A model generated the notes under the pieces. That model made no database searches. It was not told the origin of the DNA and saw nothing but the letters and a program-made list of their open reading frames with translations. Positions 8,400 through 15,876 of a DNA stretch of 64,000 bases are shown here, piece after piece. How positions within the stretch are numbered: position 1 is the first letter of the stretch; the number at the start of each line of letters is the position of its first letter. The stretch is from NCBI GenBank assembly GCA_022563855.1, contig JADFMN010000007.1, positions 1-64,000 of the forward strand, read 5' to 3'. Source of the stretch: Armatimonadota bacterium. GTDB taxonomy: Bacteria; Armatimonadota; Fimbriimonadia; Fimbriimonadales; Fimbriimonadaceae. The translations under genes and the position numbers were made by a program.

Positions 8400-9377
8400 A
8401 TGTCGGAACTGCGGTACCACCCGTTCCTCGATCAGTGGGTCATCACGGCGACCCACCGGCAGGACCGCACGTACAACCCGCCGGACGACTACTGCCCGCT
8501 CTGCCCTACCGAACCTGGCGGCTTCCCCACTGAGATTCCTCAAGAGGACTACGACATTGCGGTGTTCGAGAACAAGTTCCCGTCGCTGAAGCCCGAGCCT
8601 GACGCGCCTGCGATCGAGGGGACGATCCTCACGCCCGTCATTCCCGGCGGCGGGGCGTGCGAAGTGGTGTGCTACTCCTCACGCCACGACGCGACGTTCG
8701 CCACGCTCCCGCCCGGACAGATCAGGAAGCTAACGCGCGTCTGGAAACACCGGTACGAAGAGCTGTGCGAGCGGGACGAAGTCCAGTACGTGTTCATCTT
8801 CGAGAACAAGGGGACCGAGATCGGCGTCACCCTGAGCCACCCGCATGGGCAGATTTACGCGTACCCGTTCATCCCGCCGGTCATCAGGATCGAGCTTGAG
8901 CGAGAGAAGCTGCACTACCATGAGAAAGGGCGGCCGCTGATGCAGGACTGGCTCGCGCAGGAGAGGGAGGACGGGCTGCGGATCGTCTGTGAGAACGAGC
9001 GGTTCGTGTGCGTCGTGCCGTTTTTCGCGCGGTATCCGTTCGAAACGTACGTGACGACTAACGAGCACGTCCGGAGCCTCGCGGAGATGGACAACGATAC
9101 GCTGGACGATCTCGCTTCGATCCTGCAAGAAGTGACGAGGCGGTTCGACGCCCTGTTCGGGTTCTCAATGCCGTACATCATGGCGATGCACCAAGAGCCC
9201 GCAGTTCGGGGGTACGAGTTCAACTGGTTCCACGTCGAGTTCTATCCGCCTTATCGCACCGCCGAGAAGCTGAAGTATCTGGCTGGGAGCGAGGCCGGGG
9301 CCGGGGCGTTCATCAACGACACGCTGCCGGAAGAGTCGGCAGCGCTGTTGCGGGACGTTCGGGTTGGTTCGGGTTAG
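8400..9377 (+). CDS. galT: Galactose-1-phosphate uridylyltransferase
   Basis: 325 residues, HIT-superfamily enzyme of the Leloir pathway exchanging UMP between UDP-glucose and galactose-1-phosphate. The active-site motif is SHPHGQIYAYPFIPP, in which the middle histidine region carries the uridylyl intermediate. An N-terminal CPLCP and later histidines fit the zinc/iron site, and RYHPFLDQWVITATHRQDR is the usual start. The last residues (DVRVGSG) and the stop codon lie inside a decamer repeat array, so the C-terminus may have been altered by repeat growth. No other galactose genes adjoin it. Confidence 0.93.
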   Translation: MSELRYHPFLDQWVITATHRQDRTYNPPDDYCPLCPTEPGGFPTEIPQEDYDIAVFENKFPSLKPEPDAPAIEGTILTPVIPGGGACEVVCYSSRHDATFATLPPGQIRKLTRVWKHRYEELCERDEVQYVFIFENKGTEIGVTLSHPHGQIYAYPFIPPVIRIELEREKLHYHEKGRPLMQDWLAQEREDGLRIVCENERFVCVVPFFARYPFETYVTTNEHVRSLAEMDNDTLDDLASILQEVTRRFDALFGFSMPYIMAMHQEPAVRGYEFNWFHVEFYPPYRTAEKLKYLAGSEAGAGAFINDTLPEESAALLRDVRVGSG

Positions 9378-9463
9378 TTCGGGCTTGTTCGGGTTAGTTC
9401 GGGCTTGTTCGGGCTTGTTCGGGCTTGTTCGGGTTAGTTCGGGTTGGTTCGGGTTGGTTCGGA
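9351..9463 (+). repeat. Decamer tandem repeat, unit GTTCGGGTTR
   Basis: About eleven near-perfect 10-bp units (gggttggttc, gggttagttc, gggcttgttc variants) begin in the last codons of galT, supply its stop codon and continue into the spacer. The same decamer family, on the opposite strand, occurs at 57901-57942. The spacer 9378-9732 holds this array, a short stretch without recognisable content (9464-9595) and a REPIN element; I see no gene in it. Confidence 0.85.
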
Positions 9464-9595
9464 GTTGTATGGGAGTGCGCGGTCCTTCGTCAGGCTCAGG
9501 AGACCGCGCTTTGCGTTCGCGCGGCTTGACGCGCGCTCGATTTGATCCGGATTGGTTCGAATGCAGCCACGGATGCGGGAGGCCTGGTCCGAAAT

Positions 9596-9732: not shown

Positions 9733-10422
9733 CTAATCCCAATCGCCGCGCAACAGCTGGAAAACGCGGTGGCCTTCGTCGCCGCGAGTCATCATGCCGG
9801 CCTCGAGCTTCACATCGCTGAGCGTCTCACCGGCGTCTGCGCCGGTTGCCTCCACAGCTCCTTCTATCAGTGCCTCGCACTTCGAGATCGCGTCATCGAC
9901 TGAGACGCCTGTCCAGGTCTCGGAACCTATCTTCTCCTGCAAGTACTTGCCGGCTGCTGAAGACCCTGCCAAGTAACAGCTCTCGCGCTTCTTGTCGAAG
10001 TCGCCGTCGTAGTTAATGGCGTGGTATCGGTCGTCGGCGGGCGAGGGACCGACCTGCATGAACATGGAAAGCGCTATCACCGGCGGACTGGAGAAGTCTG
10101 CGAACGCCCTCTTGACCGGCTCGCTCACAGCGGTCACGACGCGCTGGATCGTCACGTCGTCTTCACTGCGCTGGAAACCCTGCTGGTGAGTGAAGTCGAT
10201 CGCCGCGACGCGGATCGACTCGATGTCTGACTGCTGGCCCAGCGCGGCGAACATCAGCCGGTCGTACACCTCGAAGATCTTGCGCGACTGGCGACAGTAC
10301 GTGACGGCGAGAACCCCCACATCGAGCGAGATCGCAACAACTGGAATACCGGTCGATAGACGCGATTCCACGTACTCGGCGCGATGCCCGATGCCCTCTT
10401 GCCAATCGTACGGCGTCAGCAT
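9733..10422 (-). CDS. Bacterial 20S proteasome alpha-type subunit homologue
   Basis: 229 residues. The pattern follows actinobacterial PrcA: an N-terminal helix (PYDWQEGIGHRAEYVESRLSTG), strand VVAISLDVGVLAVT, KIFEVYDRLMFAALGQQSDIESIRVAAIDFTHQQGFQRSEDDVTIQRVV (residues ~47-95), then a second sheet (PPVIALSMFMQVG...YHAINYDGDFDKKRESCYLAGSSAAGKYLQEKI). There is no N-terminal catalytic threonine, as expected for the structural alpha ring. No beta subunit, Mpa/ARC ATPase, Pup/UBact or PafA lies within the window, whereas these genes usually cluster. TATAAC ends 9 nt before the ATG. An Anbu-type or other Ntn-hydrolase relative is the alternative. Confidence 0.75.
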   Translation of the reverse strand: MLTPYDWQEGIGHRAEYVESRLSTGIPVVAISLDVGVLAVTYCRQSRKIFEVYDRLMFAALGQQSDIESIRVAAIDFTHQQGFQRSEDDVTIQRVVTAVSEPVKRAFADFSSPPVIALSMFMQVGPSPADDRYHAINYDGDFDKKRESCYLAGSSAAGKYLQEKIGSETWTGVSVDDAISKCEALIEGAVEATGADAGETLSDVKLEAGMMTRGDEGHRVFQLLRGDWD

Positions 10423-10432
10423 ACGCCTGCTG

Positions 10433-11029
10433 TTATACTCCAGACTCGTCGTCGATGAGAGTCCAGCGATCCGTCTGCTTGACGGAAGTCTTCCCCTTCA
10501 ACAGAGACTCGACCGCGACCCCTTCCAACTCGTGGACGATCGCCTTCTTGTCCCAAACGGTGAAGTAGCCGTAGCCTCCTCTCGCCAGGCTCATCGGCAA
10601 CGCGACCTTATACTTCCGGCTTAGGTCCAGCGGAGATCCGCCCACCTTAATAGAAACGACTCGCTTTGCAGGGTCCAGCTCTCGCTTGAACCGAACCTCG
10701 ACGCCGGACAAGTACAGGAACGCGTCGTTCGCCGAGGGGTACAGCGAAATCGACCGGTCGAGCGCGGCCTTGATCTGCTTTCCGCTGAGCTCTGACACGA
10801 CGAGGATATCGCCCGGGATGTCCACCATTCGGCTGAGGTCAGATCCGCTGAAATCGTCGCGGATGATGCCGGCTGGCCAAAACGCTATGTCCGCGCCTGC
10901 GGCGTCGCGCATGATGTCAGCCGCAGACTGCGCCGCAACGTACGAGCGATCAGCCGACCGTTGCGGTGAAGCAAGAGTCAGCGTGAGCGCGCCGCAAAGG
11001 GCAAAAGTCCAAATTCGGGGTGTCAGCAA
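10433..11029 (-). CDS. Exported 5'-nucleotidase C-terminal domain protein
   Basis: 198 residues from a TTG start (no ATG or GTG is available). A signal peptide (WTFALCGALTLTLASPQ) precedes a single 5_nucleotid_C domain: AADIMRDAAGADIAFWPAGIIRDDFSGSDLSRMVDIPGDILVVSELSGKQIKAALDRSISLYP...FLYLSGVEVRFKREL. In UshA-type enzymes this domain binds the nucleotide base, while the N-terminal calcineurin-like domain holds the metals. That catalytic half is absent here, so the protein alone should not be a nucleotidase. It is co-directional with the proteasome-like gene 10 nt downstream. Confidence 0.75.
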   Translation of the reverse strand: MLTPRIWTFALCGALTLTLASPQRSADRSYVAAQSAADIMRDAAGADIAFWPAGIIRDDFSGSDLSRMVDIPGDILVVSELSGKQIKAALDRSISLYPSANDAFLYLSGVEVRFKRELDPAKRVVSIKVGGSPLDLSRKYKVALPMSLARGGYGYFTVWDKKAIVHELEGVAVESLLKGKTSVKQTDRWTLIDDESGV

Positions 11030-11130: not shown

Positions 11131-11559
11131 CTAAAAGTCCGTTTCAACGCCCATCGAGCGGGCTGTGCCGGCGATCACCTTGAGCGCCGCCTCTTCGTCG
11201 TTGGCGTTCAAATCAGGCATTTTGATCTTGACGATCTCCAGCGCCTTCTCCCTTGTCAACTTGACTTCAATGATTTCCGTTCCAGGATTGCTGGACGCCT
11301 TAGCAATCCCCAGGACCTTCTTGATCATGTCCGTCGTCAGCGGCTCCTTGACCACGAACGAGTACGAGCGGTCCTCATAGACGTTGATCGAGACCGGGAC
11401 CGTGTAGCCCATCTGCTTGGCGGTCATCTCGTTGAACTTCTTCAGGAACTCCATCATGTTGATGCCGGCCTGACCGAGTGCCGGCCCAACCGGGGGCGCC
11501 GGCGTCCCCTTGCCTGCTGGTATGTTCAGCCTGACTACAGATGCGACCTTTTTTGCCAT
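11131..11559 (-). CDS. rplK: 50S ribosomal protein L11
   Basis: 142 residues, full length. KVASVVRLNIPAGKGTPAPPVGPALGQAGINMMEFLKKFN is the conserved N-terminal domain, and the C-terminal rRNA-binding domain ends GTARSMGVETDF. The ATG at 11559 (MAKKVAS) is the canonical start, preceded by AGGG. L11 forms the GTPase-associated centre with 23S rRNA. It normally sits before rplA and after nusG; here it stands alone between a nucleotidase-domain gene and a divergent E2 gene. Confidence 0.97.
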   Translation of the reverse strand: MAKKVASVVRLNIPAGKGTPAPPVGPALGQAGINMMEFLKKFNEMTAKQMGYTVPVSINVYEDRSYSFVVKEPLTTDMIKKVLGIAKASSNPGTEIIEVKLTREKALEIVKIKMPDLNANDEEAALKVIAGTARSMGVETDF

Positions 11560-11767
11560 CGAAAACCCTGCCTGCGCCCTGTGCAATCAACCGAACGAAA
11601 AGGCCGATCTCCGAGCCGGAACTGAGGCTCAAGCGACGTGCAATTATACCTTTGCGAACAGGCGACGGGCGAGCATAGGGCTGTCGGTCCCAAAGACGAA
11701 GGTTGGTCGCTCGCCGTTCGACCGCCTGTATGCCAAAATGACCCACGGCAACCAGCCGGGAAAACCT

Positions 11768-14069: not shown

Positions 14070-14279
14070 GCGGACAATCAGATAGAACAGCTAGCCGGTT
14101 GGCACTTGTGATACCGCCGGTGAAGGCACGAAATACTGCCAAATTGAACACCCGTAATATTACCGGCTTGAACCTGAGAACCGCTCATCTGCTCCCAAGA
14201 ATGATCCAGAATGCGTTGGTCGCGCTTGACTACGAAAGACAGTTCCATCGGTCGGACAATCAACATTGGATGTCACCGA

Positions 14280-14897
14280 ATGACAGGCAGTAAAGAAGTG
14301 AGAAAATATACTCTTACCGCTGTAATTGGAGTCAGCGCTTTGATGGGCGTTACTTCGGCCAGCGCGGCCATCACGTTTGAGTTCGATACAGTAATCGCAG
14401 GAGACCCACAAGGGGGTCCTGTGTTTGCGACTCTGCTGATCGAGGACAGCGGAGTTGACACCGTTTCGCTCACGCTCAGCCACACCGCAGATCCAAACGA
14501 GGCAGGCGGCCAGTCGATCAAGACACTGCTCTTGAACGTCGAACCTTTCGTTGCGGGCACAGTGACATCAGGCAGCTCGAAGTTCGTGGGCTACAGCTTT
14601 AGCGAGAACGGCAAGACAGATTCAGGTGCGATGTTCGATCTGCGGATCAATTTCGACACTGCATTGAGCAATCGTTTCTTGGCTGGTGACACCGTTGCCA
14701 TGACTGCCACAGGCGCAGGCTTAACGGAGAACAGCTTCAATGCCTTTTCTGAAGAAGTTCCATACCTAGCCATGATCCATTTCATCTCGATCCCACCGGA
14801 TCAGGATTCAGGAAAGGTCGTCGCGGTCCCTGAGCCAGCGAGCCTTTTCGCGCTAGGGCTCGGGGCAGTTGTGCTGCTTCGCCGCCGCAAGAAGTAG
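14280..14897 (+). CDS. PEP-CTERM surface protein, copy 1
   Basis: 205 residues. A signal peptide (VRKYTLTAVIGVSALMGVTSASA) precedes a beta-rich extracellular body with no named domain. The C-terminus VPEPASLFALGLGAVVLLRRRKK is a textbook PEP-CTERM sorting tag: PEP motif, membrane helix, basic end. Such proteins are exported and processed by exosortase, usually in exopolysaccharide-producing bacteria; no exosortase gene is in this window. An alternative GTG start at 14298 would give a more typical signal-peptide length. It is a tandem paralogue of 15259-15876. Confidence 0.85.
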   Translation: MTGSKEVRKYTLTAVIGVSALMGVTSASAAITFEFDTVIAGDPQGGPVFATLLIEDSGVDTVSLTLSHTADPNEAGGQSIKTLLLNVEPFVAGTVTSGSSKFVGYSFSENGKTDSGAMFDLRINFDTALSNRFLAGDTVAMTATGAGLTENSFNAFSEEVPYLAMIHFISIPPDQDSGKVVAVPEPASLFALGLGAVVLLRRRKK

Positions 14898-15073: not shown

Positions 15074-15258
15074 GCGGACGATCAGATAGGATAACTAGCC
15101 GATTGGCACTAGCGATACTGCTGGCAAATGCCCGTAATACTGCGAGATTGAACCTGAGACCGGGCCATCGGCTCCCGTCGTGATACAATGTCCGGTGATC
15201 GCGATTGACTGCGATAGACAGTTCAGCCGGTCGGACAATCTACATTGGGTCTCACCCA

Positions 15259-15876
15259 ATGACAGCGAGGAAAGAAGTGAAGAAATATCTTTTTTCCGCT
15301 CTGGTTGGAGTGAGCGCTATATTTGGCGTTACATCGGCCAGCGCGGCCATCACGTTTGAGTTTAATACAGTAATAGCAGGAGCCCCGCAAGGGGGCCCGG
15401 TATTCGCCACTCTGCTGATCGAGGACAGCGGTGTTGACACCGTTTCGCTCACGCTCAGCCACACCGCAGATCCAGGCCAGGCAGGCGGGCAGTCGATCAA
15501 GACTTTGCTCTTGAACGTCGATCCTTTCGTCTCAGGCACAGTGACCTCTGGCAGCTCGAAATTCAAGAGCTACAGCTTCAGCGAGAACGGCAAGAACGAT
15601 TCTGGTGCGATGTTCGATTTGAGGATCGACTTCGACACCGCAATGAACAACCGTTTCTTGGCGGGCGACTCGGTTGCGATGACTGCCACCGGTACGGGCC
15701 TGACGGAGGATAGCTTCAATGCTTTCTCTGCTGGAGTTCCTTACCTAGGCATGATCCATTTCATCTCGGTCCCACCGGATCAGAATTCGGCAAAGGTCGT
15801 CGCGGTTCCTGAGCCGGCGAGCCTTTTCGCGCTAGGGCTCGGAGCAGTTGTGCTGCTACGCCGCCGCAAAAAGTAG
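15259..15876 (+). CDS. PEP-CTERM surface protein, copy 2
   Basis: 205 residues, same length as copy 1 and very similar throughout (ITFEFNTVIAGAPQGGPVFATLLIEDSGVDTVSLTLSHTAD is nearly identical). It has the same signal peptide type and the identical sorting tag VPEPASLFALGLGAVVLLRRRKK. Differences are concentrated in the N-terminal signal region and in exposed polar segments, suggesting both copies stayed under selection. The -10-like TACATT is at 15240-15245. It directly precedes the HMG-CoA lyase gene. Confidence 0.85.
   Translation: MTARKEVKKYLFSALVGVSAIFGVTSASAAITFEFNTVIAGAPQGGPVFATLLIEDSGVDTVSLTLSHTADPGQAGGQSIKTLLLNVDPFVSGTVTSGSSKFKSYSFSENGKNDSGAMFDLRIDFDTAMNNRFLAGDSVAMTATGTGLTEDSFNAFSAGVPYLGMIHFISVPPDQNSAKVVAVPEPASLFALGLGAVVLLRRRKK

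Follow-up and report, generated by a model that had tools for sequence, protein, structure and literature searches.

The gene at positions 9733-10422 of the DNA analyzed here is very probably prcA, its product being the only alpha subunit of a 20S proteasome of the UBact (Pup-like) type, and its isolation results from an operon break-up in which prcA moved off in the bacterial family concerned. The window is the whole stretch of DNA analyzed, 64,000 nucleotides from an Armatimonadota assembly (GCA_022563855.1, contig JADFMN010000007.1, hereafter C7). The first-pass annotation, made from the window alone, had described this gene as stand-alone; isolation within the window says nothing on partners elsewhere in the genome, and with the partners located the apparent orphan is settled. 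The gene also provides a well-sampled example in which a machine of several subunits kept its parts while its operon came apart step by step.

Identity and predicted fold of the window protein

The gene and its two neighbors are as follows.

9733-10422, minus strand: prcA, proteasome alpha subunit, 229 aa (profile, PDB sequence match and predicted structure)
10433-11029, minus strand: neighbor of prcA, not proteasome, a lone 5'-nucleotidase C-terminal domain protein (PF02872, E 1e-20)
11131-11586, minus strand: not proteasome, probably the gene of ribosomal protein L11 (named from its sequence)

The reading frame of prcA is intact. The NCBIfam model TIGR03691 matched the 229 aa product with 65 bits (E 5.4e-18, profile 15-220 of 229), which is under the 139 bits of the curated cut-off; membership in the alpha family was therefore given by the E-value only. 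The beta family model TIGR03690 listed no match at E up to 10, and the HslV models did not match. The solved PDB chain of M. tuberculosis PrcA matched residues 8-224 (E 1.3e-10). PF00227, the general Pfam proteasome model, stayed short of significance (E 0.073) and did not list the gene in a search of the whole genome; overlooking the window protein, it is a poor detector here. Queries with TIGR03691, PF00227 and the PDB were run without the initiator Met, and the raw residue numbers are 1 lower than the final numbering.

With an alignment of 30 sequences as input, AlphaFold returned a model with pLDDT 94.2 and pTM 0.90, in which a predicted N-terminal H0 helix (residues 4-22) is followed by the proteasome sandwich. 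The nearest solved structure to this model was M. tuberculosis PrcA (Z 26.5, 207 residues aligned, 2.6 Å, 20% identity), and Rhodococcus PrcA gave Z 26.0. The best 22 rows of the PDB comparison were all bacterial proteasome entries (Z 25.5-26.5), with eukaryotic and archaeal proteasome chains ranking after them at Z about 22.5. Among the 30 aligned relatives 24 columns were invariant, and all 30 kept the start of H0 as well as the pocket lysine. The alpha-type reading frame proposed in the first-pass annotation was confirmed by TIGR03691, the PDB match to PrcA and the predicted fold, and the profile and model together support its assignment as PrcA, the bacterial proteasome alpha-type subunit. 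Against this identity count the TIGR03691 score under the cut-off and the identity of about 20% to M. tuberculosis PrcA.

Partner genes in the same genome

The window genome comprises 3.18 Mb in 22 contigs and is 96% complete. Across all of it TIGR03691 gave one match at E up to 1, the window gene on C7, and hence no second PrcA. Genome-wide searches with PF00227, TIGR03689, PF03136 and PF20513 put no further proteasome gene on the prcA contig, and the lack of proteasome partners around prcA that had been noted from the window was thereby borne out. Searching the rest of the genome for prcB, arc/mpa and pup/ubact, as had been proposed at the same time, recovered one PrcB, one ARC/Mpa-type ATPase and one UBact, together with two enzymes of the Pup-ligase family, so the gene does not stand alone in its genome:

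C4:151272-152762, Dop-family enzyme (PF03136)
C4:152708-152944, UBact (PF20513, E 3.4e-21), the protein ending in RSGQ
C4:152941-153684, PrcB (TIGR03690, 122 bits; also found by PF00227)
C16:12310-13968, ARC/Mpa-type ATPase (TIGR03689, 464 bits)
C1:80581-82281, second Pup-ligase-family enzyme, PafA-like (PF03136)
C1, HslV (PF00227)

The genes of the UBact system are spread over four contigs, with the Dop-family enzyme, UBact and PrcB in this order on C4, PrcA on C7, ARC on C16 and the ligase-family enzyme on C1. The closest PDB relatives of the C16 ARC were proteasome-associated ATPases (E 1.5e-102). PF03136 gave two matches in this genome (412 and 398 bits), and the C1 enzyme was named PafA-like since it is the best match of the gene that follows prcA in the operons of relatives. 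As read from its sequence, the C4 PrcB has a Thr at the expected processing point and Asp17 and Lys33 counted from Thr1, which we take to be the catalytic positions of PrcB. Since the partners are encoded elsewhere in the genome and no second PrcA was found, the window gene most likely supplies a UBact proteasome with its alpha subunit.

Judging from its homologs, PrcA would assemble as seven copies into a gated outer ring on the PrcB ring. From the mycobacterial homologs, Dop would be expected to deamidate the C-terminal Gln of UBact, after which the PafA-like ligase would attach UBact to substrates. The ARC/Mpa-type AAA ATPase may then dock on the alpha ring and pass substrates by way of the H0-helix gate to the Thr1 sites of PrcB.

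Occurrence among relatives

The order sample consisted of the window genome and 60 relatives (61 genomes, 50 of good quality). PrcA was found in 52/61, PrcB in 54/61, UBact in 54/61 and ARC, counted at E <= 1e-60, in 58/61 genomes; TIGR03691 gave one match per genome in every prcA-positive genome. Among the good-quality genomes 46/50 carry prcA. PrcA, PrcB and UBact occurred together in 50 of the 61 genomes, all three were absent in five (G029, G034, G039, G053 and G060), and six were mixed: G001, G020 and G048 were without PrcA, G022 had PrcA only, G054 had UBact only and G057 was without UBact. Four of these six are less than 90% complete. The genomes lacking PrcA (G020, G001 and G048) and the one lacking PrcB and UBact (G022) count against the UBact-proteasome reading.

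In G020 (92% complete), PrcB, UBact and ARC were found and PrcA was not, profile search included; either an assembly gap or a proteasome without an alpha ring could give this pattern. In the phylum sample, PrcA was present in 133/201 genomes, or 128/190 of those of good quality. One record titled Methanoregulaceae archaeon (L143) carries a prcA 46% identical to that of the window and is probably a mislabelled or contaminated bin.

Gene order and relocation of prcA

Comparative genomics showed that an ancestral operon ARC-Dop-UBact-PrcB-PrcA-PafA was broken up and that prcA moved away from prcB in f1, the family of the window genome (37 genomes). The two genes were adjacent in 0 of the 32 f1 genomes with both; in 8/32 they shared a contig at distances of 18-920 kb, and in 24/32 they lay on different contigs, which in draft assemblies alone give no distance. 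In the sister families f2, f3 and f5, prcA adjoins prcB in all 19 genomes with both, and in other families of the phylum prcB adjoins prcA in 19/20 stretches. The full order is present in 13 of these 20 stretches, the remaining seven including some that stop at a contig end and some without ARC or PafA inside the stretch; the six-gene order was likewise found in 4/4 Nitrospinaceae loci and in one record labelled Bipolaricaulota. The window prcA looks orphaned because f1 moved prcA away from prcB family-wide. ARC and prcA are 1.0 Mb apart in G041 and 42 kb apart in G045. Most simply, ARC would have left the operon first in this taxonomic order, and prcA would have been separated from prcB later in f1, PafA having been located in the window genome only.

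In 18 of the 32 f1 genomes with both, the distance from prcA to the 5'-nucleotidase-domain gene is at most 1.2 kb; homologs of the latter in the sister families lie away from prcA. Since 14/32 f1 genomes are without this neighbor, prcA may have moved more than once. In part of f1 the 5'-nucleotidase-domain gene has the L11 gene upstream of it; in an ORF scan of seven stretches for an empty-site comparison, the 5'-nucleotidase-domain gene was labelled in only four and L11 was beside it in none.

Several other features were observed. In f5 (e.g. G044 and G050) the opposite break occurs, with prcB-prcA united and UBact elsewhere in 5/7 genomes with UBact and PrcB. The protein of 10433-11029 (minus strand) has no catalytic domain and a signal-like N terminus, and 5'-nucleotidase-domain homologs are present in 48/50 good-quality genomes of the order sample. 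Between galT and prcA, positions 9357-9467 hold an array of about 11 copies of the 10-base unit GTTCGGGTTG. Two tandem, closely similar proteins are encoded at 14211-14897 and 15205-15876, and their C termini are presumably a PEP-CTERM-like sorting signal.

Trees and alternative explanations

The f1 sequences formed one clade with support 100/99 in the trees of PrcA (29 rows) and PrcB (28 rows) alike, and the PrcA tree grouped f1 with f5 inside the order (90/98). The agreement of the two trees indicates that prcA was relocated, neither replaced nor decaying. The f1 stem branch of the PrcA tree is long (0.68 changes per column). The PrcA/PrcB depth ratio was 1.44 in f1, 1.17 in f5 and 0.99 in f2, and by this informal measure PrcA in f1 appears somewhat faster than PrcB relative to f5 and f2. 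Horizontal replacement, in which the original prcA next to prcB disappeared and a foreign copy was acquired at another site, would fit the new gene position and the long stem, but f1 is one clade in both trees and stays with f5 inside the order, and we consider such a replacement improbable. Less probable still is a second, specialized alpha subunit in addition to an ordinary PrcA encoded at another site, a role that had been considered for the isolated gene. The window prcA does lie outside the PrcB locus, yet it is the genome's single TIGR03691 match, every positive genome of the order sample has one such match, and the orthologs adjoin prcB in the sister families.

The faster evolution of PrcA relative to PrcB in f1 could also be expected of an alpha-only, self-assembling ring without proteolysis, split from PrcB in function and position. 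This idea, likewise raised at first, has very little probability left, as PrcA, PrcB and UBact are kept together in 50/61 genomes, none of the 30 aligned relatives departs from the start of H0 or the pocket lysine, and the PrcB of this genome retains Thr1, Asp17 and Lys33; with this catalytically equipped beta subunit encoded on a different contig, there is no need to invoke a ring of alpha subunits only. As for a relic decaying after proteasome loss, local isolation speaks for it and nothing further. The gene is intact, with 24 invariant columns among 30 sequences, it is found in 46/50 good-quality genomes of the order sample, and its partners are present in the genome, so that decay can be dismissed with near certainty.

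ARC C-terminal tail and alpha-ring pocket

The activator tail GQYL of M. tuberculosis inserts into a pocket of the alpha ring, where the Tyr touches R26 and the Leu touches K52; the same source gives this tail for Mpa and for actinobacterial ARC (PMC11953334). The pocket positions were transferred from M. tuberculosis PrcA by the PDB-match alignment (R26 = T24, K52 = K48). The lysine K48 was kept in 76/76 PrcA rows. The arginine is replaced by T24 in the window PrcA, and Arg occurs there in 1/76 rows; R26 was treated as a feature of GQYL docking and not as defining for alpha subunits.

ARC tails were compared in 50 proteins (35 + 15; L084-L113, L176, L183-L186 and 15 of L212-L231), which come from many families across the phylum, from four Nitrospinaceae and from a record with the label Bipolaricaulota, and which are kin, not independent draws. 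A GxYx tail, a Tyr at -2 and the actinobacterial GQYL were each found in 0/50. Val or Ile stood at -2 in 49/50 and at both final positions in 45/50, and Arg stood at -5 in 38/50. Val and Ile together make up 14% of the residues in the first 35 ARC proteins, therefore about 2% would be expected to show such a double end by chance. The ARC of the window genome itself ends in NIVT and is among the five exceptions to the double end. A coding pattern for GQYL and stop had 0 matches across the window genome, which is a weak check. The Bpa profile PF10759 gave zero matches anywhere, controls included, so it has no bearing on the absence of Bpa.

The absence of GQYL, the Val/Ile tails and the retention of the pocket lysine but not of the arginine suggest that the ATPases of UBact systems use a gate-opening tail unlike GQYL. 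With somewhat better than even confidence, we propose that UBact proteasomes are gate-opened by an ARC tail R-[RK]-[NST]-[VI]-[IV] instead of GQYL, with its carboxylate forming a salt bridge to K48 and the Tyr-R26 contact missing on both sides together, and that the window lineage also disperses the machine gene by gene, uncoupling alpha from beta expression. From the sequences we infer that the ARC tail docks in the PrcA pocket. If true, this would be a second solution to ATPase docking on the bacterial proteasome.

Comparison with known systems

Armatimonadetes proteasome subunits have been published before, and the window gene adds to a known kind. One study reports that the subunits of armatimonadetes, nitrospirae and verrucomicrobia form one cluster (PMC5666114), and another describes Dop/PafA as sporadic in Armatimonadetes (PMC7947786). 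The usual actinobacterial order is given as dop-pup-prcB-prcA-pafA with mpa/arc upstream (PMC3511204). A literature search outside most subscription journals found neither the prcA relocation nor the ARC tail in print.

The window PrcA resembles actinobacterial PrcA (M. tuberculosis, Rhodococcus) in its predicted fold over 207 residues, in the H0 helix and in K48 standing for K52, whereas it is only about 20% identical, has T24 for R26, and its gene does not adjoin prcB. HslV, Anbu and proteasome subunits belong to one Ntn-hydrolase superfamily; the window PrcA matches no HslV model and has a predicted fold nearest to PrcA. As in the UBact proteasome of Gram-negative bacteria (NF033388, PF20513), UBact, Dop, a PafA-like ligase, PrcB, PrcA and ARC are all encoded in the window genome. 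Those systems usually occupy a single locus, which is not strictly defining, whereas the genes of the window genome lie on four contigs, with prcA detached family-wide.
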